Assembly (NCBI GenBank): GCA_023818375.1 | Contig: JAMWCC010000071.1 | Coordinates: 1 to 32,186 of the forward strand | Origin: Candidatus Omnitrophota bacterium | Lineage (GTDB): Bacteria > Ratteibacteria > UBA8468 > B48-G9 > DTJG01 | Length of the DNA: 32,186 nt | Reading direction: 5' to 3' | Part shown: one piece after another, positions 1-16,571 of the stretch | Layout: every line of letters starts with the position of its first letter | How positions within the stretch are numbered: the stretch's first letter is position 1 | Notes under the pieces: generated by a model | Seen by the model: only the letters and a program-made list of their open reading frames with translations | Database searches by the model: none | Told to the model about the DNA's origin: nothing | Translations under genes and position numbers: made by a program

Positions 1-507
1 ATACTTGCTTTTCTCTGTCTGTTTTTCGGGCTTTACAACAAATTACCCCTTGCAATGATTGATTCCACAGTATTTTTTTCAGGCAGATACCAAGATTTTT
101 CAAAGCATGCCCTTGACCTTTTGAATACTGCCTCTGGTATTACGGTTGCCTGCTTGATTTTCGCATTTTTACTTCACAGATATGGCTGGCTAAAGGCAGG
201 TAAAAAGGCATATCTTGCTTCTGAGATTGTACATAATCTAGTGATTATAAGAGATATTTACCGTCTTGCTGAAAGAAAGATTTTTGATGTGTATGAGCAA
301 GGTATGAAAATTGTAAATACTCTGTCCCTTGCTCTTTATCATGGTTTTGACAGATCTTCTGACTGGTTATATGAAAGGGCAGTGGTTGACTCTGGAAAAA
401 AGGCAATAAATTCGATGAGGGTAGTTCACAAAGGCAATGCCACTCAATATGTAGCCTGGATTTTTGCTGGGGCAGTCATTGTGACAATTTTTGTATTGAT
501 TTTTTAG
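1..507 (+). CDS. Proton-translocating antiporter-like subunit (NuoL/HyfB type), C-terminal part
   Basis: The reading frame is open from base 1, so this is the 3' end of a gene that begins upstream of the window. What remains is the C-terminal membrane region of a NuoL-type antiporter subunit. It has a hydrophobic helix around the sequence ITVACLIFAFLLHRYGWL, an amphipathic stretch containing HGFDRSSDWLYERAV, and a final hydrophobic helix ending at the stop. NuoL and HyfB proteins have this FDxxxDWxYE-like region before their last helix. The gene ends in TAG, a rare stop here, and the SD of the next gene (AGGAGAAGG) starts directly after it. It belongs to the membrane arm of the hydrogenase complex and probably moves protons or sodium ions. 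Assignment to the L-type rather than the M or N type rests only on this C-terminal region. Confidence 0.75.
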   Translation: MLAFLCLFFGLYNKLPLAMIDSTVFFSGRYQDFSKHALDLLNTASGITVACLIFAFLLHRYGWLKAGKKAYLASEIVHNLVIIRDIYRLAERKIFDVYEQGMKIVNTLSLALYHGFDRSSDWLYERAVVDSGKKAINSMRVVHKGNATQYVAWIFAGAVIVTIFVLIF

Positions 508-516
508 GAGAAGGAC

Positions 517-1995
517 ATGTTTTTATTTATTTTCATAGGTATGCCACTTGCGATTGCGGGAATTCTGCCTGTAATCAGCAGGATTTCCAGGAAATTTCTT
601 CCTGATTTTCTTGCTAATCTTTGTTTTGTAATCCTGCTAGCGGCGAGTATCTCAATTTATAATCTCTGGCCCGGGGCAGGAAGGTTTTCACATAACCTTG
701 GCTGGTTCGGTACAGATCTTAACATATCTCTAGTACTTGATGGTTTCAGTCTCTTGATGATTTTCACTGTTTGTATTGTTTCTCTTGCAGTGGGACTTTT
801 TTCGATAGATTATATCGAGCGCTACGGTTGGCGGTCGGCATATTATTCTATTTTGCTTGTACTTGTTGCTTCAATAAATGGAATTATTCTTACTTCTGAC
901 CTTTTTACCATGTATGTTTTCATAGAGGCTGCTGGGCTTGTTTGCTATGGTTTGGTTGCTTTTGGAAGAACGAGATTTGCAATTGAAGGTGCCATAAAAT
1001 ACCTTATCATTTCAGCGATTGCGTCTGTTTTTATTCTTCTTGGTATCGCTCTAATTTTTGTTAGGACTGGAAGCACAGATCTTAGGGTAATCGCTGCTTA
1101 TCCAGTAGCTGCATCAAAGGTCAATATAATTTTGTTCCTTGTTGGTTTTGGGGTGAAATGTGCGCTTGTTCCTTTTCACTTTTGGATGCCTGATGCATAT
1201 ACAGCTGCACCAGCTGTATTACCAGCAATGAGTTCCGGTATCTTCGTGAAGGCAGCGGGAGTTTACGCGTTGTGCAGGATTTTCTTTAATACATATGGTG
1301 TTAATCAGGCTGTTTTATCTGTCATGATATATCTTGGAATAGTTTCAATCCTCGTTGGTGCATTTCTTGCCCTGGGACAAACAAGACTGCGGAGAATGCT
1401 TGCTTATTCTTCCATAAGCCAGATGGGCTATATTGTACTTGGTCTGGGTATAGGTACACCGCTGGGGATTATTGGTGCTCTTCTTCATTTGTTTTTCCAT
1501 TCAGCTTTTAAGTCCCTTTTGTTTTTAAATGCAGGTGCAGTTGAATATGCTACAGGGACTGATGAAAGTAAAGAACTTGGTGGTCTTGGTGGAAGGATGC
1601 CATTTACGTCCACTACAAATATTATTGGTATTCTTTCAGCAGCCGGGGTGCCGCCGCTGAATGGCTTCTGGAGTAAATTAATTATTGTTATCGCTTTGTG
1701 GCAGGCAAAGATGTTTTTGTATGCTTTCATAGCAATATTTGCAAGTGTTCTTACTTTATGGTATTTACTCTTAATCCAAAGAAGGATATTTTTTGGAAAA
1801 TTAAACAAGTTGTTGGCAGAAGTTTATGAAGTTCCTTTTTGGATGAATTTATCAATGGTTGGATTGGCTCTGGTATGTGTATGGACGGGTGTTTCATTTG
1901 CATCTTTTATTTGCACTTGGCTACTCCCTGCTTCTGGTGTCTTGATTGATGGTGTTAAGGGGCAACTATTTATAATTGGGAGTCAATTCTTATGA
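517..1995 (+). CDS. Proton-conducting membrane subunit of hydrogenase (NuoM/NuoN/MrpD-like)
   Basis: A 492-residue polytopic membrane protein of the antiporter-like family shared by complex I, group 4 hydrogenases and Mrp antiporters. It keeps the two charged residues that define the channel: a glutamate at about residue 137 (TMYVFIEAAGLVCYG) and a lysine at about residue 214 (GVKCALVPFHFWMPDAY). The second half has the HLFFHSAFKSLLFLNAG motif with another buried lysine. The length is normal for NuoM/NuoN. The ATG follows AGGAGAAGGAC. The stop overlaps the next start as ATGA, so the two are probably translationally coupled. In the complex it should couple H2 chemistry at the peripheral arm to ion translocation. 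Whether it sits at the M, N or HyfB/D position cannot be decided from sequence alone. Confidence 0.9.
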   Translation: MFLFIFIGMPLAIAGILPVISRISRKFLPDFLANLCFVILLAASISIYNLWPGAGRFSHNLGWFGTDLNISLVLDGFSLLMIFTVCIVSLAVGLFSIDYIERYGWRSAYYSILLVLVASINGIILTSDLFTMYVFIEAAGLVCYGLVAFGRTRFAIEGAIKYLIISAIASVFILLGIALIFVRTGSTDLRVIAAYPVAASKVNIILFLVGFGVKCALVPFHFWMPDAYTAAPAVLPAMSSGIFVKAAGVYALCRIFFNTYGVNQAVLSVMIYLGIVSILVGAFLALGQTRLRRMLAYSSISQMGYIVLGLGIGTPLGIIGALLHLFFHSAFKSLLFLNAGAVEYATGTDESKELGGLGGRMPFTSTTNIIGILSAAGVPPLNGFWSKLIIVIALWQAKMFLYAFIAIFASVLTLWYLLLIQRRIFFGKLNKLLAEVYEVPFWMNLSMVGLALVCVWTGVSFASFICTWLLPASGVLIDGVKGQLFIIGSQFL

Positions 1996-2468
1996 CCAGT
2001 TTACTGATAGGGGCAGTATTGGTTTTTGCTTGTTTGGCTGTTTTTCTGAAAGACATGCTTAAAGCAGTATTGTGTCTATTAATCTCAAGTATATTTTTAG
2101 CAATTATCTTTTTCAGGCTGAATGCTCCTTTTGCGGGAGTTTTTGAAATTTCTGTCGTTGCTGGTTTGATTATGGTTCTTTTCATTATTACGATTTCTAT
2201 TGTCGGTCCACAAGATACAGTTTCTGAACCAACTGTTCCTATAGCAATTTTCCTTGTATTATTCATGATTTTTTCCTATCTAGTAAATGATGGTATCGTC
2301 CATTTGCTAACATCCGAAAAATTTTTAGCAAATTCCAAAGACTATAAAAGATTTGGTGAGGCATTGTGGTTAGGAAGGACTTTTGATATCGTCGGTCAGA
2401 TAAGTGTAATTTTTGCAGGTGTTTTTGTTGTTTTGTTGGTTGCCGGAAGGAGAAGGAATGGTAAATAA
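1992..2468 (+). CDS. NuoJ-like membrane subunit of hydrogenase
   Basis: A 158-residue protein with several hydrophobic helices that resembles NuoJ/MbhD-E, the subunit carrying the pi-bulge helix in complex I. The early helices are followed by a conserved-looking block (SVVAGLIMVLFIITISIVG) that matches the NuoJ TM3 region in position and character. A polar loop and a last helix ending in an Arg-rich tail (AGRRRNGK) follow. It starts inside the stop of the upstream antiporter subunit and overlaps the start of the NuoK-like gene, which is the usual J-K gene order. Its role is inferred from complex I: part of the proton path linking the interior cavity to the antiporter subunits. Confidence 0.85.
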   Translation: MTSLLIGAVLVFACLAVFLKDMLKAVLCLLISSIFLAIIFFRLNAPFAGVFEISVVAGLIMVLFIITISIVGPQDTVSEPTVPIAIFLVLFMIFSYLVNDGIVHLLTSEKFLANSKDYKRFGEALWLGRTFDIVGQISVIFAGVFVVLLVAGRRRNGK

Positions 2469-2775
2469 CAATTTAACGGATTGCTGGTTGCTTATGCATG
2501 GGGCTGCGGCACTTTTATTTATTGGTTTTTATTGTATCTTTGCGAGACGAAATATGATACGCCTTTTGATAGGGCTGGAAATTATATCAAAGGGAATATG
2601 CCTTCTTATAATTTGTGGTAGTTTTCCATCAGGAATACTTGTTGCTCAGGCACTTGTTATAACCATAATAGTTATTGAGGTTTGCTTGATGGCTGTTGGT
2701 CTTGCTTTGGTCATCAAAGCTTATAAGCAGGCTGGTAGTATTGATATTAGAAAATTTGCTAATCTGAAAGGTTGA
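2458..2775 (+). CDS. NuoK-like membrane subunit of hydrogenase
   Basis: A 105-residue, three-helix protein. I chose the ATG at 2458 because it follows GGAAGGAGAAGG and gives the normal NuoK length; an earlier in-frame start at 2413 would only add residues lying inside the nuoJ-like gene. Two buried glutamates essential in NuoK are present: E41 (LLIGLEIISKG) and E74 (IVIEVCLMAVGLAL), equivalent to E36 and E72 of the E. coli protein. It overlaps the end of the upstream gene by 11 bases. In complex I and in MBH-type hydrogenases (MbhG) this subunit forms part of the central proton relay, so the enzyme here should be ion-pumping. Confidence 0.9.
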   Translation: MVNNNLTDCWLLMHGAAALLFIGFYCIFARRNMIRLLIGLEIISKGICLLIICGSFPSGILVAQALVITIIVIEVCLMAVGLALVIKAYKQAGSIDIRKFANLKG

Positions 2776-2779
2776 CAAA

Positions 2780-3157
2780 ATGAGCAAAATAGATATATTA
2801 ATTTCACCACCTATTGCATTTTTGATAATGAGCCTTTTTTTTAGCGTTTTGTATATCTTAGCAGGAAAATTTGCTTTAACTACAAAAAGAAGCAAGGAGA
2901 AGGTTTCGACATATGCTTGTGGTGAAAACATCCCTGGTTTTAAATTTCAATTTGGTTATAATTTGTTTTTCGTTTTTGCATTGTTCTTTACCATTATGCA
3001 TGTTGCAGCACTTATTTTTGCGACTTTGCCATCGGGTTTACCTTTGGTGTATTTTGGTATTTTTTATCTTTTCGCAATTTTTCTTTCAGTAATCAGTATG
3101 CTTTCTTACATTGAATCAGATTATGTAATTTCTGAAAGTGAGGAAGAAAGTGATTGA
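2780..3157 (+). CDS. NuoA-like membrane subunit associated with a [NiFe]-hydrogenase
   Basis: A 125-residue, three-helix protein with the NuoA layout: an N-terminal helix, then a loop with the cysteine motif YACGENIPG, then the block FGYNLFFVFALFFTIMHVA and a third helix, ending in an acidic tail (SESEEESD). NuoA proteins have Y-x-C/S-G, then Fxxx-F-Y and the acidic FDVE motif. Here the last motif reads MHVA, so both conserved acids are gone. The gene sits between the K-like and B-like genes with gaps of only a few bases. MBH and E. coli Hyf hydrogenases lack a recognised NuoA, so its presence beside a Ni-binding large subunit is unusual. The family call is fairly secure; the function of the altered loop is unknown. 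Confidence 0.8.
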   Translation: MSKIDILISPPIAFLIMSLFFSVLYILAGKFALTTKRSKEKVSTYACGENIPGFKFQFGYNLFFVFALFFTIMHVAALIFATLPSGLPLVYFGIFYLFAIFLSVISMLSYIESDYVISESEEESD

Positions 3158-3581
3158 GAGGTTGATAAAGTGGTCGAGGCTAAAGTCTCCGTGGATACTT
3201 CATTTAAACACTGGTGCATGTAATGCCTGTGATATTGAAATTGTGGATGCCCTTACACCAAGATTTGATGTTGAAAGATTCGGAATTTTGCTGAAGGCAT
3301 CTCCAAGACATGCGGACGTGATAGTATGTACCGGTCCTGTGACAAGGCAGATGAAGGACAGGATTATCAGGATTTATGAGCAAACTCCAGATCCCAAGTT
3401 TGTCATTGCTGTTGGAGCCTGTGCCATGTCTGGTTGTGTATACAGAGGTGCATACAATGTTATTGGAGGGGTGGACCAGGTTATTCCTGTTGATATATAT
3501 GTTCCTGGATGCCCACCAAGGCCAGATGCAATTATCGACGGCGTAGTAAAATTATTACAAAAGCTGGAGAGTTCTAAATGA
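3150..3581 (+). CDS. [NiFe]-hydrogenase small subunit (NuoB/HycG-like)
   Basis: A 143-residue iron-sulfur subunit that carries the proximal [4Fe-4S] cluster and passes electrons to or from the Ni-Fe site. The cluster ligands are visible as C24 and C27 (GACNACDIE), C91 (GACAMSGC) and C121 (PGCPPRP). The CxxC arrangement of the first pair is typical of hydrogenases; NuoB of complex I has adjacent cysteines instead. I prefer the GTG at 3150, which follows AGGAAG at suitable spacing and overlaps the stop of the NuoA-like gene by eight bases. An upstream GTG at 3138 has no SD and would add four residues. The next gene starts in its stop codon (ATGA). Confidence 0.92.
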   Translation: MIERLIKWSRLKSPWILHLNTGACNACDIEIVDALTPRFDVERFGILLKASPRHADVIVCTGPVTRQMKDRIIRIYEQTPDPKFVIAVGACAMSGCVYRGAYNVIGGVDQVIPVDIYVPGCPPRPDAIIDGVVKLLQKLESSK

Positions 3582-4051
3582 ACCAGGCAGAAATTTTTGA
3601 AAAAATTAGAACAAACCTATCTGCACAAATAACTGATATTTCTATGCCATCTCCAAGAAGGATCTTTGTTTCTGTTGCTCCAGAAAAACTTATTGAAACA
3701 TTGAAAATATTGAAAGATGATTTTGGTTTCTACCATCTTTCAACGATATCAGGTCTTGACAAAATAACAGGCTTTGAAGTTCTTTACCATCTTGCAAATT
3801 CGTTTGTCAGTTTGACCGTGAGGGTTCAAATCGACAGAGCTAAGCCTGAGATAATCTCGATATGTGAAGTTATCCCGGGTGCAATTCTTTACGAACGCGA
3901 AATTCAGGATATGTTTGGTATAAAAGTTATAAATATTCCTGATTCGAGACCGCTTGTTTTACCAGATGACTGGCCAGAGGGTGAATATCCATTGAGAAAG
4001 GACTGGAATTATCAACCGCCAGCAGAAACAATTCCAGGGGAAGAACAATGA
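3578..4051 (+). CDS. NuoC-like 30 kDa subunit of hydrogenase
   Basis: A 157-residue soluble protein related to NuoC and to the N-terminal part of HycE/HyfG. The family signature appears in the second half: YEREIQDMFGI followed by PLVLPDDWPEGEYPLRKDW. In E. coli hydrogenases 3 and 4 this domain is fused to the large subunit; here it is a separate gene, as in many complex I and MBH operons. It overlaps the small-subunit gene upstream and the large-subunit gene downstream by four bases each. It has no cofactor-binding motif and is structural in known complexes, packing against the small and large subunits. Confidence 0.92.
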   Translation: MNQAEIFEKIRTNLSAQITDISMPSPRRIFVSVAPEKLIETLKILKDDFGFYHLSTISGLDKITGFEVLYHLANSFVSLTVRVQIDRAKPEIISICEVIPGAILYEREIQDMFGIKVINIPDSRPLVLPDDWPEGEYPLRKDWNYQPPAETIPGEEQ

Positions 4052-5247
4052 AAAAAATAAAAATTCCAATAGGACCGCAACATCCTGCGTTGAAAGAACC
4101 CATTAGTTTAAGGATAACGGTTGAGGGTGAAGTGATAAAAGATGCAGATGTCAGACTTGGTTATAATCATCGTGGAATAGAAAAACTTGCAGAAAGCAGA
4201 ACGTATGTTCAAAATATCTATCTAATGGAAAGAATCTGTGGGATTTGTTCACATTCACATACAACCTGTTTTGTCCAGGGGGTTGAATCGCTTTGTGGAC
4301 TTGAGGTTCCTAAAAGAGGTTTATTTATAAGGATGCTTGTTTGTGAGCTTGAAAGAATCCATAGCCATTATCTCTGGTTGGGTGTTGCTGCTCATGAGGC
4401 AGGATTTGATTCGCTGTTCATGTACACATGGCGCGACAGGGAAGTGGTAATGGATCTTCTGGAAATTATTTCAGGCAACAGGGTTCATTATGCAATAAAT
4501 ACAATTGGCGGGGTCAGGAGAGATTTAAGTGAGGTACAGAAAGAAAAAATTCTTGAGGGAATACAATTTTTGAAAAAGAGAATGGAGTATTACACCAATC
4601 TTGGTACTACAGAACCATCATTTGTTGCAAGGGTTTCGGGTGTTGGTATTCTTCCAAAGGAAAAGGCAATGTCTCTGTGTGCTGTTGGTCCTACATTGAG
4701 AGCATCCGGCATTGCTTCTGACATAAGAAAAGATGATCCTTATGCTGCCTATGATGAAATACCATTTAGTGTTTGCACAGCTACCAGTTGCGATGTTTTG
4801 GGAAGGGTTGTGGTGAGAATTAAGGAAACAATGGAATCAATAAAAATTGTTGAATACTTGGTAAAAAATCTGCCAAGTGGTGAAATAAAAGTACGGGCAC
4901 CAAGAAAAGTAAAGGAAGGAGAGGCCGTAAGCAGATATGAAGCTCCGCGTGGAGAAAATATTCATTACATAAAAAGCAACGGAACTGATAAGCCTGAAAG
5001 AGTAAAAGTAAGAGCTCCTACGCTTGCAAATTATCCTGCAACAATAGAGATGTTGAAAAGCGGATTCATTGCAGATATTCCCTTAATATTTGCAGCTATA
5101 GATCCGTGTATCTGTTGTGCAGAAAGATTTGTTGAGGTGATTGATACCAAAAATGAAAATACACAAGTGTTAACGATGGCAGAAATAAAAAAAAGATATT
5201 CTAAAAGCCAAGGGCTAAAGAAAGGAAGTTCAGTATGGCCATTATGA
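4048..5247 (+). CDS. [NiFe]-hydrogenase large (catalytic) subunit, group 4 (NuoD/HycE-like)
   Basis: A 399-residue catalytic subunit. The L1 motif RICGIC gives C64 and C67 and the L2 motif DPCICCAER gives C354 and C357; these four cysteines hold the Ni-Fe(CN)2CO centre. Complex I NuoD lacks them, so this enzyme should make or use H2. Other family landmarks are GPQHPALKEP near the N-terminus, LGYNHRGIEK, ELERIHSHYLWLG and GNRVHYAINTIGGVRRD. After the L2 motif there are 39 more residues, like the HycE extension that is cut off after the arginine of DPCxxCxxR once nickel is inserted. The HycI-like protease gene three genes downstream fits this. Direction and electron partner (probably ferredoxin) are inferred. 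Confidence 0.95.
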   Translation: MKKIKIPIGPQHPALKEPISLRITVEGEVIKDADVRLGYNHRGIEKLAESRTYVQNIYLMERICGICSHSHTTCFVQGVESLCGLEVPKRGLFIRMLVCELERIHSHYLWLGVAAHEAGFDSLFMYTWRDREVVMDLLEIISGNRVHYAINTIGGVRRDLSEVQKEKILEGIQFLKKRMEYYTNLGTTEPSFVARVSGVGILPKEKAMSLCAVGPTLRASGIASDIRKDDPYAAYDEIPFSVCTATSCDVLGRVVVRIKETMESIKIVEYLVKNLPSGEIKVRAPRKVKEGEAVSRYEAPRGENIHYIKSNGTDKPERVKVRAPTLANYPATIEMLKSGFIADIPLIFAAIDPCICCAERFVEVIDTKNENTQVLTMAEIKKRYSKSQGLKKGSSVWPL

Positions 5248-6206
5248 AAGCATTGGTTTATCTTTTTGTCTATCCTGGGCTTTTGTTTCTTTTTGTTTAT
5301 TCAACATTCTGTGAATGGTTTGATAGAAAACTATACGCAAGACTCCAAAACAGAGTTGGTCCTGCTTATACAGGAAGAGCAGGAATTCTTCAGCCGATTG
5401 CAGACTTTTTAAAATTGCTTTTTAAAGAAGATATAATTCCAGAAAATGCAGACAGGATAATATTTTCAATTTTGCCAGTGATTGGAGTTGCAACCGTTGC
5501 TACTGCTGGTCTTTATCTTCCATTGTGGAATTACGATGTATCCAGAACTACGTTCAACTCATTTCAGGGAGACATTATTGTTGTTCTTTATCTTTTATGT
5601 TTATCCACCGTCATACTTTTTCTTTCTGGCTGGCACTCAACAAATTTTTTCTCAACCATTGGAGGCGTGAGAGTCTTAACAATGCTTTTTGGCTATGAGG
5701 TTCCATTGTTCCTTTCAGTTTTAAGTCCTGCAATTGTGGCTGATTCATGGCGACTTGCCGAAGTAGCGAATTTTTACCAGGATTTTCCGTTTCTTTTGTT
5801 TTTTCAAATTATAGGACTTTTTGTTGCACTGATTTCATTACAGGCAAAACTTGAAAGAACGCCATTTGATATTCCACACGCGGAAACTGAGATTGTTGGT
5901 GGTACTTTTACCGAATTCTCAGGGAAAAAACTTGCTTTTTTTAGGTTAATGACTGATATTGAAATGGTAGTTGGAAGCGGTTTGATAGCAACGGTTTTTA
6001 TGGCAGGCTTTGCCGGCGGTCTTATGGGTTCACTTGCAAGGTTTGTTTTAAAAACCTTGATAGTTATTGCAATTCTTTCAATCATTCGGGCGACTTTTTC
6101 CCGGATTAGGGTTGATCAGATGGTTGTTTTTTCGTGGAAATACCTGACGCCGCTTGCAATTTTACAGTTGTTGGTAAGCATAATAATTAAAGGGGTTATA
6201 AAATGA
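5235..6206 (+). CDS. NuoH-like membrane subunit of hydrogenase (HyfC/HycD/MbhM type)
   Basis: A 323-residue membrane protein that anchors the catalytic arm. Family motifs are present: RLQNRVGPAYTGRAGILQP in the first cytoplasmic loop, followed by LADxxKLL-like residues (IADFLKLLFKED), and FDIPHAETEIVGG in a later acidic loop that corresponds to the quinone or ion-channel entry region of NuoH. The start at 5235 follows AGGAAG with eight bases of spacing and overlaps the large-subunit gene by 13 bases. The stop overlaps the next start (ATGA). The length is normal. Its role in coupling redox chemistry to ion movement is inferred from complex I and MBH structures. Confidence 0.92.
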   Translation: MAIMKALVYLFVYPGLLFLFVYSTFCEWFDRKLYARLQNRVGPAYTGRAGILQPIADFLKLLFKEDIIPENADRIIFSILPVIGVATVATAGLYLPLWNYDVSRTTFNSFQGDIIVVLYLLCLSTVILFLSGWHSTNFFSTIGGVRVLTMLFGYEVPLFLSVLSPAIVADSWRLAEVANFYQDFPFLLFFQIIGLFVALISLQAKLERTPFDIPHAETEIVGGTFTEFSGKKLAFFRLMTDIEMVVGSGLIATVFMAGFAGGLMGSLARFVLKTLIVIAILSIIRATFSRIRVDQMVVFSWKYLTPLAILQLLVSIIIKGVIK

Positions 6207-6604
6207 AATTAAGACCTGGTGCATTTATACCTGAACTGCTTAAGCATTTGTTTAAAAAGCCAGCAACTGTAATGTACCCTTTTGAGAAGCTCAATATACC
6301 AAAGGATTTCAGGGGTACTCCTGTACTAAAGCCAGAGTTATGTATAGTTTGTAGGGCTTGTGTAAGGGATTGTCCTGCATTTGCAATTGAGATAGAAACA
6401 CTTTCTGAAGAAGAGAAAAAATACAAAATGACAATTCACAATGATAGATGTATTCACTGTGCACAGTGTGTAGAATCTTGCCCAACCAAGGCGCTTTTTA
6501 TGGACGATGGTTATGAGCTTTCAACTGATAGCAGGCGAAAGCTTAAAATTGCATATGTGTATTCAAGACCTAAAAAGACCGCACAGCAGTCCAGTGAAAA
6601 ATAA
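6203..6604 (+). CDS. NuoI-like 2x[4Fe-4S] ferredoxin subunit of hydrogenase (HycF/HyfH/MbhN type)
   Basis: A 133-residue electron-transfer subunit with two complete CxxCxxCxxxC motifs: C47, C50, C53, C57 (CIVCRACVRDC) and C83, C86, C89, C93 (CIHCAQCVESC). The N-terminus (KLRPGAFIPELLKHLFKKPATVMYPFE) is the amphipathic membrane-associated segment typical of NuoI/HyfH. It ends the block of structural genes. No NuoE, NuoF or NuoG-like gene lies in the window downstream, so electrons probably come from a soluble ferredoxin, or from a partner encoded elsewhere or upstream. The start lies in the stop codon of the NuoH-like gene. Confidence 0.93.
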   Translation: MKLRPGAFIPELLKHLFKKPATVMYPFEKLNIPKDFRGTPVLKPELCIVCRACVRDCPAFAIEIETLSEEEKKYKMTIHNDRCIHCAQCVESCPTKALFMDDGYELSTDSRRKLKIAYVYSRPKKTAQQSSEK

Positions 6605-6619
6605 AAGAGATTTGTTTTA

Positions 6620-7114
6620 ATGAGCTTTTGGAAAAAGGAAATTTACAATAGAGTTAAAAATTTTAAAAAGCTTGTTATCTTATGCGTAGGCAATCCAGAG
6701 GCATCTGATGATGGTGTCGGTGTAGAAATTGGAAAAAGGCTGCTAGAAAATCTGTTTGATAGCCCTGATGTTTTCATCTTTAATTGTTATACTGCGGCAG
6801 AAAATTTTACTTCACCGGTAAAAAAAATAATGCCCAGCCACATCTTGATCATAGATTCATGTGTAGCTGGTAAGGTGCCAGGTACAGTTTCAGTTTTTTG
6901 TCCGGATGATTTAAAAGAAGAAGATATTTCGTCTCATAGGATACCAGTACAATTATTATCAAGATACCTTAAGAATGAGACTGGAGCAGATGTTATAATT
7001 ATTGGGATAGAGCCCGAGATTCTTGGTAAAGGACGACATTTAAGTGGTTCTGTTAAGAACGCGGCTGATGAGATTGTCGAGTTTTTGTTGAAAATTTTTA
7101 GAAAGAACTGGTGA
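6620..7114 (+). CDS. hycI: Hydrogenase maturation protease (HycI/HyaD family)
   Basis: A 164-residue endopeptidase of the M52 family that removes the C-terminal extension of the large subunit after nickel insertion. The nickel-sensing residues are visible in GNPEASDDGVGVEIG near the N-terminus and in the IIDSC strand that follows, and a later SSHRIPVQLL block matches the HycI-type SSHxxPL motif. The length fits the family (about 150-165). The gene lies 15 bases after the ferredoxin subunit and before hypA. The large subunit keeps a 39-residue tail beyond its L2 motif, so substrate and protease are encoded together. The SD is weak. The HycI subtype is inferred from the group 4 context. Confidence 0.88.
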   Translation: MSFWKKEIYNRVKNFKKLVILCVGNPEASDDGVGVEIGKRLLENLFDSPDVFIFNCYTAAENFTSPVKKIMPSHILIIDSCVAGKVPGTVSVFCPDDLKEEDISSHRIPVQLLSRYLKNETGADVIIIGIEPEILGKGRHLSGSVKNAADEIVEFLLKIFRKNW

Positions 7115-7124
7115 TGGTGATATA

Positions 7125-7385
7125 ATGCAAGAGTTAAGTATGATTGAAAGCCTAAGAATTTTGCTTAAAAATGTTTGCGAAAGGGAAAACGCCAAGAAAG
7201 TTATCTCGATCGAAATGACAGTTCATCCTTACAGCTGTCTTGATGAAGATAATTTGAATTTCATGTATCTATCAATTCTTGGAGACGATCCAATTTTGAA
7301 GGATGCCAAAATTAAGATTAAGAGAAGTGAAAAAGTACAACAGAGACAATTTATAGTTAACAATATTGAAATTGAGGTTGATTGA
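7125..7385 (+). CDS. hypA: Truncated HypA-like protein lacking the zinc ribbon and His2
   Basis: An 86-residue protein that aligns with the N-terminal and extreme C-terminal parts of HypA, the nickel metallochaperone for hydrogenase. It has the M-x-E-L-S-M start, the VxxIxxxVxxxSCLxxxxLxF pattern and a final strand ending in IEIEVD. Normal HypA is about 113 residues and carries two CxxC motifs forming a zinc ribbon before that final strand; here the stretch is missing and only RSEKVQQRQF remains. The second residue is Gln (CAA) instead of the nickel-binding His. A stop codon (TAA) just upstream in frame excludes a longer start. The frame is clean, so this is a shortened but apparently intact gene. 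It may act as a HypB partner or be functionally degenerate. Confidence 0.78.
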   Translation: MQELSMIESLRILLKNVCERENAKKVISIEMTVHPYSCLDEDNLNFMYLSILGDDPILKDAKIKIKRSEKVQQRQFIVNNIEIEVD

Positions 7386-7392
7386 AAAAACC

Positions 7393-8055
7393 ATGACTTT
7401 CAAAAAAGTAAAGATTGAACAAAACCTGTTTTCACAGAACGAGGAAATTGCCAGAGAAAACAAAAGTATTTTTACAAAACATAAAATTTTGTCTTTGAAT
7501 TTTATGGGAGCACCTGGTTGTGGAAAGACTTCTATTATTGAAAAGCTTATTCCAGAACTTTTAGCTAAAAAAATATATTGCGGGGTGATAGAAGGTGATA
7601 TCGCAGGTAGTTTTGATAGCGAGAGACTGGAACATTATGGAATACCCTTGGTACAGATTAATACAGGTGGTGCATGCCATCTTGATGCACTCATGATTAA
7701 GAAAGGAATGGAGAACCTGCCGCTTAAACAGCTGAATGTTGTTATTATTGAAAATGTGGGAAATCTTGTATGTCCTGCTGAATTTGAACTTGGTGTGGAT
7801 TGTAATATAACTGTTGCCAGTATTACAGAAGGCGAAGAAAAACCATTAAAATATCCGTTGATGTATTCAGTCTCTGAGCTTGTGCTTCTTAATAAAATTG
7901 ATCTGATAAATGTTGTTGATTTCAGTATTGAAAAATTTACCCGATTTCTAAGGCAGATCAATCCAAAGGCTGAACTTATTGCTGTTTCTGGAAGAACCGG
8001 TATTAATATAAAAGCCATAAAGGAATATGTGCTAAAAAAGATGGGACTCTTATGA
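7393..8055 (+). CDS. hypB: Hydrogenase nickel incorporation GTPase HypB
   Basis: A 220-residue SIMIBI-class GTPase that drives nickel insertion into the large subunit. The P-loop is GAPGCGKTS (residues 39-47). GDIAGSFDSERL follows as the switch region, then NTGGACHLDALMI with the Cys-His metal site at the dimer interface, ENVGNLVCPAEFELG, and the base-specificity motif LNKIDL. The N-terminal CxxCGC nickel site and histidine-rich region of some HypB proteins are absent. I chose the ATG at 7393 because the following residues match the normal HypB start; TTG codons at 7366-7378 are in frame but overlap hypA and lack an SD. The stop overlaps hypF by four bases. Confidence 0.93.
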   Translation: MTFKKVKIEQNLFSQNEEIARENKSIFTKHKILSLNFMGAPGCGKTSIIEKLIPELLAKKIYCGVIEGDIAGSFDSERLEHYGIPLVQINTGGACHLDALMIKKGMENLPLKQLNVVIIENVGNLVCPAEFELGVDCNITVASITEGEEKPLKYPLMYSVSELVLLNKIDLINVVDFSIEKFTRFLRQINPKAELIAVSGRTGINIKAIKEYVLKKMGLL

Positions 8056-10352
8056 GAAGGATTGAACTGCTCATTAATGGAATTGTGCAGGGTGTTGGTT
8101 TCCGACCATTTGTTTATCGACTGGCTCAGCAAAACAATATCACTGGCTTTGTAAAAAACACAATGGATGGCGTGTTAATTCAGGCACAAGGCAGGGAATC
8201 TGATATAGAAAATTTTATTTACTTGATAAAAAATTCTCCACCACCGAAAGCAAAAATTAAGGAAATTTTTGTAAAGCCGGTAACTCTTGTGAAAAAGGAA
8301 CATAAATTTGCAATATTGAAAAGTGATGGATATTATCGGCACAGATTAGAGATTCCTCCTGATATTGCAACTTGTAAAAATTGCGTTAGGGAAATCCATG
8401 ATCCCAAGAATCATAGATACCTTTATCCTTTTACAAATTGCGTTGATTGCGGTCCGCGTTTTACGATCATAAGAAATTTACCTTATGATAGAGAAAACAC
8501 TTCAATGAATAAATTTAAAATGTGCCCTGTTTGTGAAAAAGAATATAATAGTCCCAGCAACAGACGATTTCACGCCCAGACAAATTGTTGTGGTATATGC
8601 GGTCCAAAGTATTTCCTTGCGGATTCAAAAGGGAATGAAATCGCAAGTGGGACCCTGGCGATAAAAAGAGCTGCAAGACTTCTTGTGGAAGGAAAAATCA
8701 TCGCACTTAAAGGGATTGGTGGCTTTCATATCGCCTGTAATGCATTTTCAACAGAATCCATCAAAAGATTAAGAGTACGTAAGAATAGAGAGGAAAAGCC
8801 CTTTGCCTTGATGTCAAAGGATACTAAAATCATAGAAAAGTACTGTATTGTTTCACCTGTTGAGAAAGAATACCTGCTTTCTTCATCGGCACCAATTGTG
8901 CTTTTGCAAAAAAAGAAAAGAGCAAAGTGGTGCGAAGAAATTGCTCCGCATAACAATTATTTAGGTATTATGCTTCCATACGCACCATTACATTATCTGA
9001 TTTTTGCTTTTGAACCGGATCTTGAATTGCTTGTTATGACAAGTGGAAATTATTCTGAACAGCCAATCTGTACTGAAAATCAGCAGGCACTAAAATTGTT
9101 ATCAAAAATTGTAGATTTTTTTCTTTTCCATGACCGAGAAATTGTTTCTGGTTGCGACGATTCTGTAATGAGAGTCCTTCCAGACGGCAAGATACAGATG
9201 ATAAGGAGATCTAGAGGATTTGCCCCAGAATCCATCACTTTACCATTTAAATTCAAGAAAAGTGTACTTGGTTGTGGTGGGAATATGAAAAACACTTTCT
9301 CTTTTGTTAGTAATGATACACTCTATATGAGCCATCATGTAGGTGATATTGACAGTCCTGAAGCTTTTGAAAATTATACCTCTTCAATTATGAGATACGC
9401 CAAAATTTTGAGAATAAGTCCAGAGATTGTTGCATATGATGCACATCCTGAGTATATGTCAACTGTTCTTGCAACAACTCCGGATTTTTTTTATAAAGCC
9501 AAAAAGATTAAGGTTTATCATCATCATGCACATATATGTTCATGTATGGTTGAGAATAGACTGGAAAATAGGAAAGTTATAGGAATTGCTTTTGATGGTA
9601 CTGGTTATGGTCAGGATGGAACTTTGTGGGGAAGTGAATTTTTAGTTTGTGATTACTCAGGTTTTGAACGAATTGCTCATTTGAGACCTATAAGGCTTGC
9701 AGGATCCCAGCAGGCAATAAAAGAAATCTGGCGGATAGCAATCGCTTACCTAATAGATACTTTTGGTGATGAGTATCGTGAATATGGTTTTAAATTTTTA
9801 AAGCAAGTAAATAAAGAGCAACTATCCTTAGTAGAAAAAATGATTAAAGTTGGAATGAACAGCCCGTATTCCTCTGGAATGGGTAGATTTTTTGATGCTG
9901 TTTGCTGTATTTGTGGTATAAGAAACAAGATAAACTATGAAGGTCAGGCAGCTGCTGAACTTGAGGCAATTCTTTACCAGGATAATTCTGAAAATCCATA
10001 CGAGTTTGAGCTTGTTAAGGTTGAAGGAATGTTCATTATAGATCACAGGAAAGTCGTTCGTTCGATTGTAAAGGATATCATGAATAAGGTTCCGTCAAGC
10101 AAAATTTCTTATAAATTTCATCTTACGATAGTAAGGATGGTTTTTGACCTTTGTAGAATTATAAGCAAGGAAACAGATATTCGGGATATTGTTTTATCTG
10201 GAGGCAGTTTTCAGAACGCATTTCTTTCTGTTAGAATAAGACAAATTCTTGAAGAAAATGGATTTAATGTTTACTCGCACAGCTTGATTCCGCCAAACGA
10301 TGCCTGTATTTCAGTTGGACAGTGTGCTATTGCAGGTTTTAAATCTTTTTAA
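8052..10352 (+). CDS. hypF: Carbamoyltransferase HypF
   Basis: A 766-residue multidomain protein that makes the cyanide ligands of the Ni-Fe site from carbamoyl phosphate, working with HypE. Domains in order: an acylphosphatase domain (about 1-90, with GIVQGVGFRPFVYRLA), two zinc-finger modules (about 108-185, CKNC...CVDCGPRF and CPVC...CCGICGP), a YrdC-like ATP-binding domain (about 200-380, GKIIALKGIGGFHIACNA) and a Kae1-like carbamoyltransferase domain with HHHAHICSCMVEN, GIAFDGTGYG and LSGGSFQN. The length is normal for HypF and no motif seems missing. It overlaps the end of hypB by four bases and lies 17 bases before hypC. Confidence 0.96.
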   Translation: MRRIELLINGIVQGVGFRPFVYRLAQQNNITGFVKNTMDGVLIQAQGRESDIENFIYLIKNSPPPKAKIKEIFVKPVTLVKKEHKFAILKSDGYYRHRLEIPPDIATCKNCVREIHDPKNHRYLYPFTNCVDCGPRFTIIRNLPYDRENTSMNKFKMCPVCEKEYNSPSNRRFHAQTNCCGICGPKYFLADSKGNEIASGTLAIKRAARLLVEGKIIALKGIGGFHIACNAFSTESIKRLRVRKNREEKPFALMSKDTKIIEKYCIVSPVEKEYLLSSSAPIVLLQKKKRAKWCEEIAPHNNYLGIMLPYAPLHYLIFAFEPDLELLVMTSGNYSEQPICTENQQALKLLSKIVDFFLFHDREIVSGCDDSVMRVLPDGKIQMIRRSRGFAPESITLPFKFKKSVLGCGGNMKNTFSFVSNDTLYMSHHVGDIDSPEAFENYTSSIMRYAKILRISPEIVAYDAHPEYMSTVLATTPDFFYKAKKIKVYHHHAHICSCMVENRLENRKVIGIAFDGTGYGQDGTLWGSEFLVCDYSGFERIAHLRPIRLAGSQQAIKEIWRIAIAYLIDTFGDEYREYGFKFLKQVNKEQLSLVEKMIKVGMNSPYSSGMGRFFDAVCCICGIRNKINYEGQAAAELEAILYQDNSENPYEFELVKVEGMFIIDHRKVVRSIVKDIMNKVPSSKISYKFHLTIVRMVFDLCRIISKETDIRDIVLSGGSFQNAFLSVRIRQILEENGFNVYSHSLIPPNDACISVGQCAIAGFKSF

Positions 10353-10369
10353 ATTTTTGGGAGAAAAAC

Positions 10370-10609
10370 ATGTGTCTTGCAATTCCGATGAAGATTATGA
10401 AGAAGAAAGGAAATACAGCGGTTGTGTCTCTTGGTGGTGTTGAAAGAACCATAGATGTTTCGCTTGTCAAGGGTATCAAGACTGGTGATTATGTGATTGT
10501 TCATGCTGGTTTTGCAATTCAGAAGCTTAATAAAAAAGAGGCAAGAGAAACCTTGAAACTTTTTGATAAGATGAAATATGGAACATATAGAAAAATTCAG
10601 AAATCCTGA
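10370..10609 (+). CDS. hypC: Hydrogenase assembly chaperone HypC/HybG
   Basis: A 79-residue chaperone that shuttles the Fe(CN)2CO unit from HypD to the large subunit. The protein starts with the invariant MCLAIP, whose Cys2 is the functional residue. It continues with a small beta-barrel of the OB type containing GDYVIVHAGFAIQKL, the usual HypC motif. The ATG follows GGGAG. The 3' end overlaps the start of hypD by 32 bases, and the C-terminal helix is of normal length. Confidence 0.95.
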   Translation: MCLAIPMKIMKKKGNTAVVSLGGVERTIDVSLVKGIKTGDYVIVHAGFAIQKLNKKEARETLKLFDKMKYGTYRKIQKS

Positions 10610-11672
10610 TTACATCAAGGCACTTGTTTTGCAAATACATACTGTATCAAAAAAGATTAAGAAAGAGGTGAAACTGATGGAAGTGTGCGGGACACATACT
10701 ATGGCAATTGCCCGATGGGGTATTAGGAAGATGCTTCCAGAAAATGTTAGTCTTATTTCCGGTCCAGGATGTCCAGTTTGCGTTACACCAAACCAGTTTA
10801 TTGATACCGCAATTGAGATTTCAAAATTGGGTAATGTAAAAATTGCTACATTTGGAGATATGTACAGGGTTCCTTCAGGAAAAAAATCACTGGAAAAACA
10901 ATCAGCAAATGGAGCGGTTGTGGATATAGTGTATTCTCCGCTTGATGCTCTTAAAATTGCAGAGAAAAATCCCGAAAAGAAAATTGTTTTTTTGGCTGTA
11001 GGTTTTGAGACAACTTCACCTTTGACAGCTAAGGTTATTCTTTATGCGAGAAACCGGAAACTGAAGAATTTCTTTGTTCTTTCGGGACACAAACTTATTC
11101 CGCCAGCAATGGTCGCTCTTGTAAAAGACAAGACGCATCACATCGATGGGTTTTTATGTCCTGGACATGTAAGTGCCATAATTGGATCTGAACCATATAG
11201 AGTTTTTCCAAACAACTACGGAGTGCCTTGCGTAATTTCTGGATTTGAAGTATGTGATATCTTACAATCAATACTGATGTTGCTTGAAATGATTTGTGGG
11301 AAAAGGAAATTGTCAGTTGAGATTCAATACACAAGATGTGTGCTTAGATATGGAAATACAGTTGCACAAAAGATTATTGCCGAGGTTTTTAATGTTGTTG
11401 ATGTGGACTGGAGAGGTATAGGAATGATAGAACAAAGTGGATTGGCAATTAATAGAAAATTTACTGAATTTGATGCGTTTTCTAATTTTAAATTGGATGT
11501 GAAAATTTCCAGTGAGGCAAAAAGTTGTATCTGCGGACAGATATTAAAAGGTCTGAAAACACCCTTAGATTGTAAATTATACAGAAGGTTATGTACTCCT
11601 GAAAGTCCTATTGGACCTTGTATGGTTTCTTCTGAAGGAACCTGTGCTGCTTATTATAACTATGAAAGATGA
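10578..11672 (+). CDS. hypD: Hydrogenase maturation protein HypD
   Basis: A 364-residue iron-sulfur protein that serves as scaffold for assembly of the Fe(CN)2CO group together with HypC. The conserved cysteines are in CGTHTMAIARWGIR and in GPGCPVCVT, and the [4Fe-4S] ligands lie in the C-terminal block CICGQILKG...DCKLYRRLCTPESPIGPC. GHVSAIIG is also present. The start MEHIEKFRNP matches the usual HypD opening (MxxIxxFRDP), so the overlap with hypC appears real. The coding end overlaps the start of hypE by 11 bases. Length and motifs are complete. Confidence 0.96.
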   Translation: MEHIEKFRNPDYIKALVLQIHTVSKKIKKEVKLMEVCGTHTMAIARWGIRKMLPENVSLISGPGCPVCVTPNQFIDTAIEISKLGNVKIATFGDMYRVPSGKKSLEKQSANGAVVDIVYSPLDALKIAEKNPEKKIVFLAVGFETTSPLTAKVILYARNRKLKNFFVLSGHKLIPPAMVALVKDKTHHIDGFLCPGHVSAIIGSEPYRVFPNNYGVPCVISGFEVCDILQSILMLLEMICGKRKLSVEIQYTRCVLRYGNTVAQKIIAEVFNVVDVDWRGIGMIEQSGLAINRKFTEFDAFSNFKLDVKISSEAKSCICGQILKGLKTPLDCKLYRRLCTPESPIGPCMVSSEGTCAAYYNYER

Positions 11673-12678
11673 AATAATTCTTCTTGCACATGGGACAGGT
11701 GGAAAACAAAGCAGGATGCTTATTGAAAATTTAATTCTGAAATATTTACATGACCCCGCATTAAGATTCTTACCCGACTCTGCCTCAATAAAGGTTCCTC
11801 GTATCAACGATGAAATCTGTTTTACAACCGATTCATTCGTTGTCAGTCCTCTTTTTTTCCCTGGCGGAGATATCGGGAAATTAGCAATCTGTGGTACAGT
11901 TAATGATCTTGCTGTTTGTGGTGCCCAAGCTTTGTATATGTCATGTTCTTTAATAATTGAGGAAGGTTTGAGGTTTTCAGAACTAGAAAGGATTTTAAGA
12001 TCAATGGCGACTACTGCTGGTAAAACAGGTGTAAGGATTGTGACAGGGGATACAAAGGTTGTTGAAAAAGGAAAATGCGATGGGATCTTTATCAACACCT
12101 GTGGCATAGGTGTTAGAAAAAGTCATGTCTCTTTGGGTCTGGAACGAATCAAACCGGGAGATGCAATAATTCTAAGTGGGGTGCCTGGAATGCATGAGTT
12201 GGCAATTATATGTACCAGAGAAAATATCAGATTCAAATCTTCTTTGAAAAGCGATTGTGCTCCAATTAAAGACCTTGTTTTTCAAGTTTTGAGTGAATCT
12301 GTTGATGTAAAATTTATGAGGGATCCTACGAGGGGTGGCCTTGCAACGACATTAAATGAGATTGCTTCAGAATGTAAGTTCGGAATAAGAATTTATGAAA
12401 GTAAGATTCCCCTTGTAAAATCTGTCAAGTATTTGTGTGAAATTCTTGGGTTTGACGTAATGAATCTTGCTTGTGAGGGTAGGGTGGTTATGATAGCGAA
12501 ATATGATGATGCAGAAAAAATAGTATCGACTATGAGAAAACATCCACTTGGAAGAAAAGCAAATATAATTGGGGTAATTACTGAGAGATTTCCTGGAAAA
12601 GTAATTTTGGAAACGGTTAATGGTTCTGAAAGGTTTATAATGATGCCATCAGGAAGACAGTTACCAAGAATCTGCTGA
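11662..12678 (+). CDS. hypE: Hydrogenase maturation protein HypE
   Basis: A 338-residue PurM-like ATPase that dehydrates the thiocarboxamide on its own C-terminal cysteine to thiocyanate, supplying cyanide for the active site. The HypE opening MKDEIILLAHGTGGKQS starts at 11662; a longer frame from 11611 only runs into hypD. The ATP-binding segments GDIGKLAICGTVNDLAVCGA and MRDPTRGGLATTLNE are present. The protein ends in LPRIC, the invariant tail whose last cysteine is carbamoylated by HypF. It is the last gene of the hydrogenase operon; the next gene is convergent and may end only five bases beyond. Confidence 0.96.
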   Translation: MKDEIILLAHGTGGKQSRMLIENLILKYLHDPALRFLPDSASIKVPRINDEICFTTDSFVVSPLFFPGGDIGKLAICGTVNDLAVCGAQALYMSCSLIIEEGLRFSELERILRSMATTAGKTGVRIVTGDTKVVEKGKCDGIFINTCGIGVRKSHVSLGLERIKPGDAIILSGVPGMHELAIICTRENIRFKSSLKSDCAPIKDLVFQVLSESVDVKFMRDPTRGGLATTLNEIASECKFGIRIYESKIPLVKSVKYLCEILGFDVMNLACEGRVVMIAKYDDAEKIVSTMRKHPLGRKANIIGVITERFPGKVILETVNGSERFIMMPSGRQLPRIC

Positions 12679-12682
12679 GTTT

Positions 12683-12778
12683 TTAGACCCTTCTGTAAAA
12701 ATCTTTTAATTCTTTCAATTTTTGATCTATGGAGGTATCAGAGATTTCTTCCTCAACACTTCGCCATGCTTGTATTTT
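12683..12778 (-). other. Possible out-of-frame C-terminal tail of the preceding small gene
   Basis: On the minus strand, losing one base from the A6 run at 12775-12780 would let the upstream protein run on as VKIQAWRSVEEE, then ISDTSIDQKLKELKDFYRRV and a TAA at 12683. This tail looks like a charged helix and ends five bases from the hypE stop, a natural convergent boundary. Without the shift the protein ends in SMAKC at 12753 and leaves this stretch unexplained. A homopolymer sequencing or assembly error, or a true recent frameshift, would both fit. Confidence 0.4.
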
Positions 12779-13076
12779 TTACTCCACACAGTACAAATGG
12801 TTGGCCCCTTTCTTTAACGTATCTTGAAGCTTCATTTCTTTTGTTGAAAACAAGTTCTCCTCTTCTGGTGACTGGAATTTTTTTAATTTCCTCTTCTGGC
12901 ATATTTCTGATTGCTGCGAACATCTGGTACAAACCCAATCCAGGATCCATGACCAGCGTAAGTTCTTCAACAGTTTCTTCAGATGCAGTCACCCCTGTTC
13001 CTGCAGCCTCAGCCGCAGTAAGACACAAATATGGTCTTGTTCTTATTCTATACCTTCTTTTGATATTAGTTTCCAT
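12753..13076 (-). CDS. Small protein of unknown family, probably frameshifted near its 3' end
   Basis: I do not recognise this family. The 107-residue frame starts at an ATG preceded by TGGAG with six bases of spacing, 13 bases after the stop of the HD-domain gene, so it is probably the last gene of that operon. The N-terminus is basic (NIKRRYRIRTRPYLC), followed by a small-residue segment TAAEAAGTGVTAS and then acidic and basic stretches with GLGLYQMFAAIRNMPEEEI. It has no signal peptide, membrane helix or clear metal motif. Near the end the coding character moves to another frame after a run of six A (see 12683-12778). An open frame on the opposite strand over the same bases has no operon context and was treated as a shadow. 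Confidence 0.6.
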   Translation of the reverse strand: METNIKRRYRIRTRPYLCLTAAEAAGTGVTASEETVEELTLVMDPGLGLYQMFAAIRNMPEEEIKKIPVTRRGELVFNKRNEASRYVKERGQPFVLCGVKNTSMAKC

Positions 13077-13089
13077 TGTTCGCTCCAGG

Positions 13090-13668
13090 TTATTTTCTGA
13101 AATATATTGTTTTTTGTAGCTTTAATCTTCCATCTTCCATAGCAGCTGCCCAGGTATCAGCAAAAGTTACCAGAAGTGTTAGCGCACATTCCTTATGGGC
13201 TATGTGTTTATTCTCCATTATATACTGACCATCATGATAAAGTATTGCTTGGGCTTCTTCATCGGTTAGGGGGATAAATTTTGAAACAAGATACAAACTT
13301 CTTGCTGCTACCGACATTTCAACCTGATTTTCATTGTAAACGTAAGATGTATCTTTTTTTATGTACCTTGGCGCGTGTGGCATTCCAACCTTGCCGACAT
13401 CATGAAAAAGTCCCACTATCACACAGCTTTCATCGCTGATTTCAGGAATAAGCGTACTTTTTAATTTCAGCATTATGAGGGCTACGTTTACTGAATGAAT
13501 GATAAGGCCATGCTCAAAACAGAGATGGTACTTAGTGCTCGCAGGTGCAGTAAGCCATGTTGTTTCTTTTTCCAAAAATCTCACGAATTCATCACATTCA
13601 TCCTTTCGCTCGATGACTTTTAACAATAATTCCCTATATTTTTTTTCAAAATCAAAGTCCAGTTCCAT
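13090..13668 (-). CDS. HD-domain metal-dependent hydrolase
   Basis: A 192-residue HD-superfamily protein. The metal-binding residues are seen in order: a histidine in FEHGLIIHSVNV, the HD pair in VGLFHDVGKVGMP, a histidine in AILYHDGQY and a late aspartate in FADTWAAAMED. A lead block LTAPASTKYH resembles one seen in HD hydrolases of phage and plasmid origin in Firmicutes. Substrates of such proteins vary (nucleotides, cyclic nucleotides) and cannot be named here. The gene overlaps the end of the upstream FlgO-like gene by 17 bases and is followed 13 bases later by the small unknown gene. Confidence 0.8.
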   Translation of the reverse strand: MELDFDFEKKYRELLLKVIERKDECDEFVRFLEKETTWLTAPASTKYHLCFEHGLIIHSVNVALIMLKLKSTLIPEISDESCVIVGLFHDVGKVGMPHAPRYIKKDTSYVYNENQVEMSVAARSLYLVSKFIPLTDEEAQAILYHDGQYIMENKHIAHKECALTLLVTFADTWAAAMEDGRLKLQKTIYFRK

Positions 13669-14686: not shown

Positions 14687-14695
14687 TCTAATTCT

Positions 14696-14723
14696 ATAAT
14701 ACCACATTCATGACCAGAATCAA
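14696..14723 (-). promoter_or_regulatory. Predicted sigma70-type promoter for the FlgO-like operon
   Basis: The minus strand has TTGATT (14718-14723), a 16-base spacer and TATTAT (14696-14701). Transcription would start at about 14689, three bases before the ATG at 14686, so the mRNA would be almost leaderless. No SD is visible before that ATG. Confidence 0.5.
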
Positions 14724-14821
14724 TAATTGAAAAAACAGGTTCAAAAATATAGTAAAAGGATTGGAAACAGAAAATAGATTCTCATCAGTGCTTTTCACAA
14801 CAAAAGTCAGCAAATTCGTTA

Positions 14822-14850
14822 TTGACTTGTATCTATAAAAATGATATCAT
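14822..14850 (+). promoter_or_regulatory. Predicted sigma70-type promoter for the phosphate transport pair
   Basis: TTGACT (14822-14827), a 17-base spacer and TATCAT (14845-14850) lie on the plus strand. The start site would be near 14857, downstream of the ATG at 14841 and upstream of the GAGGAG SD at 14865-14870. This argues for the TTG start of the DUF47 gene. Confidence 0.5.
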
Positions 14851-14876
14851 TTTTCTTTAGTGCTGAGGAGCTTAAA

Positions 14877-15503: not shown

Positions 15504-15504
15504 A

Positions 15505-16497: not shown

Positions 16498-16571
16498 TTT
16501 TTAGGTTTCCCCTTCACGAGATAAATCCACAACCCCCAAAACAAGATCGGGGGCATACCCTTGGCTTCCAA

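Follow-up and report, generated by a model that had tools for sequence, protein, structure and literature searches.

Gene Content and Organization of the Locus

The stretch of DNA analyzed here (the window, 32,186 nucleotides) represents the first 32 kb of a 58-kb contig (C36) from a Candidatus Omnitrophota genome of 2.07 Mb that is 89% complete. Its leading genes run in the order L (cut)-N-J-K-A-B-C-D-H-I-HycI-HypABFDE, all on the forward strand (Table 1), and form an operon that is truncated by the 5′ end of the window. Because the contig begins at this point, only a C-terminal fragment of L is present. The missing N-terminal portion of L and the M gene both sit at one end of another contig (C46) from this genome, and they face the way that adjacency of C36 and C46 would predict. 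The intact order M-L-N-J-K-A-B-C-D-H-I can be read in five relatives (L038, L040, L043, L044, and L045), and NuoL models cover full-length L over its entire extent. The coordinates and descriptions of A, B, C, and D in the original prediction proved correct, as did its claim that relatives of A, J, K, H, L, and M/N are present, with J, K, H, and I lying in the window and M and the rest of L on C46. Both conserved Glu residues are retained in K, the second of them at an Mrp/MBH-like position in the column table.

Table 1. Features of the hydrogenase operon and the adjoining maturation genes, with positions in the window
Feature	Position	Strand	Evidence
L-type antiporter, C-terminal part (lateral helix region and last TM)	1-507	+	open frame from base 1; matches C-terminus of the 614-616 aa L of relatives
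N-position antiporter-like subunit, 492 aa	517-1995	+	PF00361, E=1.4e-65; N trees of relatives lead to MBH-type antiporters
J subunit, 158 aa	1992-2468	+	PF00499, 8.5e-12; MbhD PF13244, 1.1e-6
K subunit, about 105 aa, likely start 2458	2458-2775	+	PF00420, 3.2e-21
NuoA-like subunit A, 125 aa	2780-3157	+	profile searches, Pfam NuoA; three-helix model
YACGE, loop 1 between TM1 and TM2 of A	2912-2926	+	conservation in 56 sequences
MHVA in TM2 of A, where NuoA has FDVE	2996-3007	+	column table, 70 sequences
B, small subunit, hydrogenase-type CNAC proximal cluster motif	3138-3581	+	PF01058, 1.1e-33; motif table
C subunit	3578-4051	+	PF00329, 2.3e-31
D, large catalytic subunit, Ni ligands and C-terminal extension	4048-5247	+	best PDB match MbhL, 4.7e-111
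L1 motif CGIC (C64, C67) of D	4237-4248	+	invariant in relatives, including all 80 fetched
L2 motif CICC (C354, C357) of D	5107-5118	+	invariant in relatives, including all 80 fetched
H subunit, membrane anchor	5235-6206	+	PF00146, 5.8e-82
I subunit, two 4Fe-4S motifs, likely ferredoxin-facing entry	6203-6604	+	Fer4 families, NuoI/HycF models
HycI maturation protease	6620-7114	+	PF01750, 8.1e-15
HypA-like, short	7125-7385	+	PF01155, 1.4e-6, just under cut-off
HypB	7366-8055	+	PF02492, 2.6e-20
HypF	8052-10352	+	five HypF domains
HypD	10578-11672	+	PF01924, 2.2e-145
HypE	11662-12678	+	PF00586 and PF02769

Elsewhere in the window, a full-length serpin is encoded on the reverse strand (16747-17985; PF00079, E=4.3e-112), in what is a bacterial genome. 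DUF4838/glycosidase-like and URO-D-like proteins are encoded upstream of the operon, both in this genome (L036, 3023-6336) and in a congeneric relative (L040, 712-4232); any metabolic link between these neighbors and the hydrogenase is only a guess.

Catalytic Core and Probable Hydrogen Chemistry

The large subunit D contains both CxxC pairs expected of a group 4 [NiFe] hydrogenase (ERICGICSH and DPCICC), and the small subunit B displays hydrogenase-type CxxC spacing at the proximal cluster (GACNAC), whereas most Nuo/Fpo B proteins have an adjacent CC; the assignment of a nickel-site hydrogenase made earlier from these motifs thus stands. Both nickel pairs are kept in D of all 80 relatives fetched. 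Among PDB entries, D is closest to MbhL of MBH, then to HycE, and then to Nqo4, and it continues for 39 residues beyond CCAER, the Arg of which ends the solved MbhL chain. The Glu of its LKEP motif, aligned with MbhL E21, is conserved in 43 of 43 tabulated A-bearing hydrogenases, whereas this column holds Gly in 27 of 27 Nuo/Fpo proteins. The quinone-site His and Tyr (Nqo4 H38 and Y87) are absent from D, which has Lys and Gly there according to both the alignment to 2fug_4 and the column table.

The surrounding genes were considered alongside these residues. HycI and HypABFDE follow directly downstream of I, and POR and Rnf-type genes are present in the genome. No UbiA-family quinone prenyltransferase was found in the genome, while all 14 control genomes gave matches; because the assembly is 89% complete, this absence is not proof. 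No true NuoA was found elsewhere in the genome. As judged from sequence, the combined picture favors H2 chemistry over quinone chemistry. It is extremely improbable that the operon instead specifies a ferredoxin:quinone complex I whose nickel site is vestigial and non-functional; such an enzyme would account for the overall similarity to an 11-subunit Nuo without the NADH module, but the nickel ligands, the proximal CxxC, the equivalent of MbhL E21, and the protease and Hyp genes have all been kept, the quinone-site residues have not, and no UbiA was found.

Subunit A and Its Relation to NuoA and MbhI

Considered alone, subunit A from the window matches the Pfam NuoA model (PF00507) only weakly, at E=0.008, below the cut-off. 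Because of this weak single-sequence match, the profile search proposed in the original prediction was the appropriate check, and it placed the 125-residue protein in the NuoA family: the Pfam model is matched by 49 of 56 family members (best value 1.8e-8), and NuoA/ND3/NdhC chains are the sole significant matches in a PDB profile search with the A family (8.5e-6 with 8 sequences and 2e-6 with 56). The predicted structure consists of TM1, a long unstructured TM1-TM2 loop, TM2, and TM3 (pLDDT 83, pTM 0.47); a Foldseek search with this low-pTM model returned nothing below E=1 and one ND3 chain at E=6. On the strength of the profiles, the protein is a true NuoA homolog over TM1-loop-TM2-TM3.

Two motifs noticed earlier in this protein hold throughout the family. 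In loop 1, the Y-x-C-G-E signature is conserved, with Y45, G48, and E49 invariant in 56 sequences and C47 nearly so. In TM2, the replacement of FDVE by MHVA extends across the clade, as His stands in place of Asp in 24 of 28 tabulated bacterial members. Here, bacterial proteins show M/L-H-V-A and archaeal ones frequently F-D-V-[AFG], and the final Glu of FDVE is common only in Nuo/Fpo among the 70 sequences of the column table. To judge from these residues, the archaeal FDV[AFG] form looks intermediate.

The earlier statement that MBH lacks a recognized NuoA requires correction, since MBH possesses a partial counterpart in MbhI, whose TM1 and loop 1 correspond to those of Nqo7/ND3 in published structures (PMC7684303, PMC10396290). 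The A profile hits MbhI weakly (E=0.12) and only over residues 8-53 of the profile. A reading of A as MbhI itself was rejected because the match ends after loop 1; TM2 and TM3 of NuoA are what Hfo, the hydrogenase type discussed below, and complex I have in common beyond MBH. In four other loci (L226, L227, L228, and L230), MbhI-like ORFs lie directly upstream of B, with NuoA-profile E values of 0.003 to 0.2 and a loop of the form P[YF][LI]SGN[AP]EP (for example, PYLSGNAEP); such ORFs are a sequence-level sign of the MbhI-NuoA kinship already evident from structures.

Distribution of Related Operons

Relatives were drawn from a scan of 84,980 species genomes, of which the best 80 loci among those listed were fetched; most are from metagenome-assembled genomes (MAGs). 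Bacterial hosts among these 80 include Aminicenantes/Acidobacteriota, Omnitrophota, Elusimicrobia, Planctomycetes, Margulisiibacteriota, Bacillota, and others, and archaeal hosts include Bathyarchaeota, Asgard lineages, and Euryarchaeota. The named relatives with 78-85% identity in D are MAGs labeled TA06 and Omnitrophota. The A gene occurs in 72 of the 80 loci; of the remaining eight, five run into a contig edge at B or ahead of it, and the other three (L061, L108, and L123) retain B-C-D-I with no A or H nearby. From these gene sets, the NuoA-bearing nickel hydrogenase is widespread in bacteria.

Several variant loci were also encountered. In L061, L108, L123, L207, L208, and L209, which come from Bathyarchaeota and one Acidobacteria MAG, the Hfo lineage is represented by B-C-D-I, and genes for A, H, J, K, or antiporters were not seen in the neighborhood; by their gene content these loci are possible soluble derivatives. 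One archaeal genome has two A-bearing hydrogenase operons of the clade adjacent to each other on opposite strands (L202, G130:C6, about 1-19500), and another locus (L214, G170:C10) has the order B-C-D-I-A-H-J-K-antiporters, with A in an unusual place, and its long branch leaves the clade close to the base. Additionally, the Omnitrophota genome itself encodes a second group 4 hydrogenase (L037, G000:C12, 1-10042) with H, B, C, D, two antiporters, J, MnhB, and K; its D is 43% identical, and the genes upstream resemble FeS and FAD/NAD subunits of NAD(P)-linked sulfhydrogenases.

Phylogeny and the Age of NuoA

Hfo (Fpo-like hydrogenase, subgroup 4g) of Bathyarchaeia has been presented as the first [NiFe] hydrogenase to match Fpo and Nuo in all 11 subunits (Loh et al. 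2021, PMC7886697). Relatives have been reported in Methanomethylicus and Pyrodictium, and the enzyme has been argued to close the gap to complex I (PMC7886697). In the present trees, D of the operon falls into one clade with bathyarchaeal Hfo-like D (100/99 in one tree and 98 in another). A survey of 100 further loci found A next to two kinds of D, namely D without Ni ligands (Nuo/Fpo) and D of the Hfo-type hydrogenase clade, and did not find it in the sampled Ech-, Hyc-, and MBH-type loci.

In the combined B+D+H tree, all A-bearing hydrogenases and Nuo/Fpo form one clade (100/100), apart from the Ech, Hyc, and MBH types, and Nuo/Fpo stand beside the archaeal members (99/98). H alone also brings the A-bearing hydrogenases and Nuo/Fpo together (100), B alone agrees weakly with this clade, and D alone neither resolves nor rejects the Hfo-Nuo join (p=0.63 and 0.58). 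Joining Nuo to the bacterial Hfo alone is rejected (p=0.0008), while Hfo monophyly, which would make Hfo and Nuo sisters, is compatible with the data (p=0.21). The root is unsure, as the group 1/3 outgroups sit on very long branches. In the tree of A, the hydrogenase sequences lie outside the diversity of Nuo/Fpo A (100/99), and the same hydrogenase clade is kept across the trees of A, H, B, and K.

Since the A-bearing hydrogenases share one clade with Nuo/Fpo, the better reading of these trees is that NuoA most likely joined before nickel was lost. Under either branching order, the common ancestor of Hfo and Nuo/Fpo would most simply have had both nickel and A, and NuoA is probably older than the use of quinone. 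Of the proposal that the operon preserves an intermediate between hydrogenase and complex I, the shared clade and the arrival of NuoA before nickel loss are retained; a placement of Nuo within Hfo is tentative, because D alone does not resolve it and Hfo monophyly remains acceptable.

The other option raised in the original prediction, a later gain of NuoA, is disfavored. Here, an MBH- or Ech-like hydrogenase would have received NuoA horizontally from a complex I operon, and nothing ancestral would have been kept. Modules do move, as the antiporters described below illustrate by their swap, and some hosts carry a true Nuo as well (G008 and G009). However, acquisition from a modern complex I is hard to reconcile with hydrogenase A branching outside Nuo/Fpo A rather than within it, with the common clade kept by A, H, B, and K, and with the intermediate look of archaeal FDV[AFG], and this scenario is considered unlikely. 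The favored reading, to which high confidence is assigned, is that of a bacterial Hfo-type energy-converting [NiFe] hydrogenase with the core of complex I. In this reading, the common ancestor that Hfo shares with Nuo/Fpo contained nickel and already possessed NuoA, and MBH-type pumps serve the bacterial line.

Origin of the Antiporter-Like Subunits

The pump subunits of the bacterial enzyme have a different affinity from its core. In trees, support of 100 joins bacterial L, and likewise bacterial N, to antiporters from MBH-like hydrogenases of bacteria, and bacterial M groups with one MBH-like antiporter, whereas L, M, and N of archaeal Hfo group with NuoL, NuoM, and NuoN. Orthology of bacterial L with NuoL had been expected and was rejected (AU p=9.5e-6), so the "almost the full complex I membrane set" of the original prediction does not apply in terms of descent. 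K and J are nearest to archaeal Hfo, but for these short proteins the tests do not separate MBH from Hfo/Nuo affinity (p=0.15 and 0.07). With MBH-type antiporters on a Nuo-type core, the bacterial enzyme is a mosaic, and the grouping of its antiporters with MBH-like ones indicates that pump subunits have been exchanged between the Hfo and MBH kinds.

The C-terminal loop of L differs between the two kinds, reading FxGGE or a close variant in MBH-like L (nine sequences) and AYLASEP or GLKAVDH in Hfo L (five sequences). This pattern suggests that loop 1 may have been, as it were, handed from L to A. It has tentatively been considered, at somewhat less than even probability, that the bacterial members represent a second, independent complex I-like assembly, in which a NuoA-bearing Nuo-type core was combined with MBH/MBS-type pumps, A supplies loop 1, and the loop of L has degenerated.

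The antiporters also bear on whether the operon might be an ordinary MBH-type (Mrp-linked) 4g hydrogenase, as MAG papers label such enzymes, with A being just MbhI. The labels "4g, Mrp-linked" in Omnitrophota, the closeness of D to MbhL in the PDB, and the MBH-type L and N would all fit; on the other hand, A matches NuoA over TM1-loop-TM2-TM3 and MbhI merely up to loop 1, no MnhB-like gene was seen in the complete operon of relatives, and the B, D, and H trees separate the enzyme from MBH-like loci. An ordinary MBH-type enzyme is accordingly rated as very unlikely.

Proposed Mechanism

The Hfo-type enzyme is likely to function as a ferredoxin-linked, ion-pumping, reversible hydrogenase. Reduced ferredoxin would deliver electrons to the two clusters of I. 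They would then travel by way of B, through its proximal cluster, to D, whose NiFe site would reduce protons to H2. Loop 1 of A, loop 2 of D, and loop 3 of H would couple this reaction to the charge axis in the membrane, and ions would be exported by the J/K path and the three antiporter subunits; the reverse process, in which H2 and an ion gradient yield reduced ferredoxin, would also be possible. Both the I-B-D electron path and the three-loop coupling are proposed by homology with MBH and MBS, and the partner, the direction, the pumped ion, and the coupling are likewise putative. Ferredoxin is assumed to be the donor because NADH and F420 modules are missing and POR and Rnf-type genes are present, which fits such a role.

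Hydrogenases of the Hfo-like type are reversible, which speaks for the possibility that the same enzyme operates mainly in reverse in vivo, the ion gradient driving ferredoxin reduction with H2. This mode has been proposed for bathyarchaeal Hfo (PMC7886697), while the POR and Rnf-type genes are, weakly, more in keeping with a fermentative, H2-evolving host; a predominantly reverse role is thus a possible but rather doubtful variant. For the forward direction, the energy available from ferredoxin to H2 is small under standard conditions (12 kJ/mol for MBH; PMC7684303), for which three antiporters seem many. By our own estimate, the energy would suffice where H2 is low, as in syntrophic habitats: with ferredoxin at -500 mV, about 45 kJ per 2 electrons would be available at 1 Pa H2, which would pay for about three ions, and far less at 100 kPa.

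By what steps a hydrogenase became complex I is a long-standing problem, and the order of events becomes testable with a nickel enzyme that has a full NuoA and occurs in many bacterial phyla: NuoA and the core would come first, nickel loss and quinone binding later. MBH-type pumps on a complex I core also offer a way to study the part that NuoA and its conserved acids play in coupling, and the enzyme lends itself to asking how many ions one hydrogenase can pump. If TM2 and TM3 of A set the position of the arm as in complex I, the shift of the arm between MBH and complex I would have happened in a hydrogenase, before nickel loss.

Comparison with Known Systems

Because archaeal Hfo has already been described (PMC7886697), the finding is a bacterial branch of a known kind. 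The enzyme is not new at that level: the original prediction had named the existence of many described group 4 operons with the same subunit as evidence against itself, and the archaeal form published in 2021 (PMC7886697) is in part such a case. No earlier description of the bacterial 11-subunit form or its pump set was found in a search confined to open-licence papers, which yielded the archaeal paper only, and the new elements here are the bacterial members and the new pump arrangement. Omnitrophota and Endomicrobia are credited with HydDB group 4g hydrogenases of the same large-subunit class, and V. archaeovorus, which carries one of the loci of the present set (L104), with a 4g enzyme, in the available portions of three papers (PMC10066038, PMC8542988, PMC11257099); those portions give a class label or "Mrp-linked" only and do not discuss the A gene or the complex I core. 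The present enzyme presumably belongs to subgroup 4g as well, given the relatives so labeled in the literature.

Like archaeal Hfo, the bacterial enzyme has Ni motifs in D, an A-B-C-D-H-I core, and 11 subunit types (as read in the complete operon of relatives), lacks an NADH or F420 module, and falls into the same B, D, H, and A clade as the sampled bathyarchaeal loci. Unlike it, the bacterial operon has the order M-L-N-J-K-A-B-C-D-H-I with HycI and Hyp genes behind and does not keep the Fpo/Nuo gene organization beyond A-B-C-D-H-I, its L and N are MBH-type where the archaeal antiporters are NuoL/M/N-type, and its A motif has His rather than Asp.

With the 11-subunit form of complex I (Nuo/Ndh-1) and with Fpo, the enzyme shares homologs of A, B, C, D, H, I, J, and K, the A-B-C-D-H-I block, and three antiporter-like subunits. 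It differs from them in retaining the nickel site, in having CxxC rather than CC at the proximal cluster, in lacking the quinone-site His and Tyr, in its altered FDVE motif in A, and in bacterial antiporters that are not orthologous. With MBH and MBS of Pyrococcus (6CFW, 6U8Y), it shares MbhL as the best solved match of D, the MBH-type L and N, and the TM1 and loop 1 that MbhI has in common with A; in contrast to those complexes, no MbhI, Mrp Na+ module, or MnhB-like gene was seen in the operon of relatives, which instead encodes a full NuoA with TM2 and TM3 and a third antiporter.
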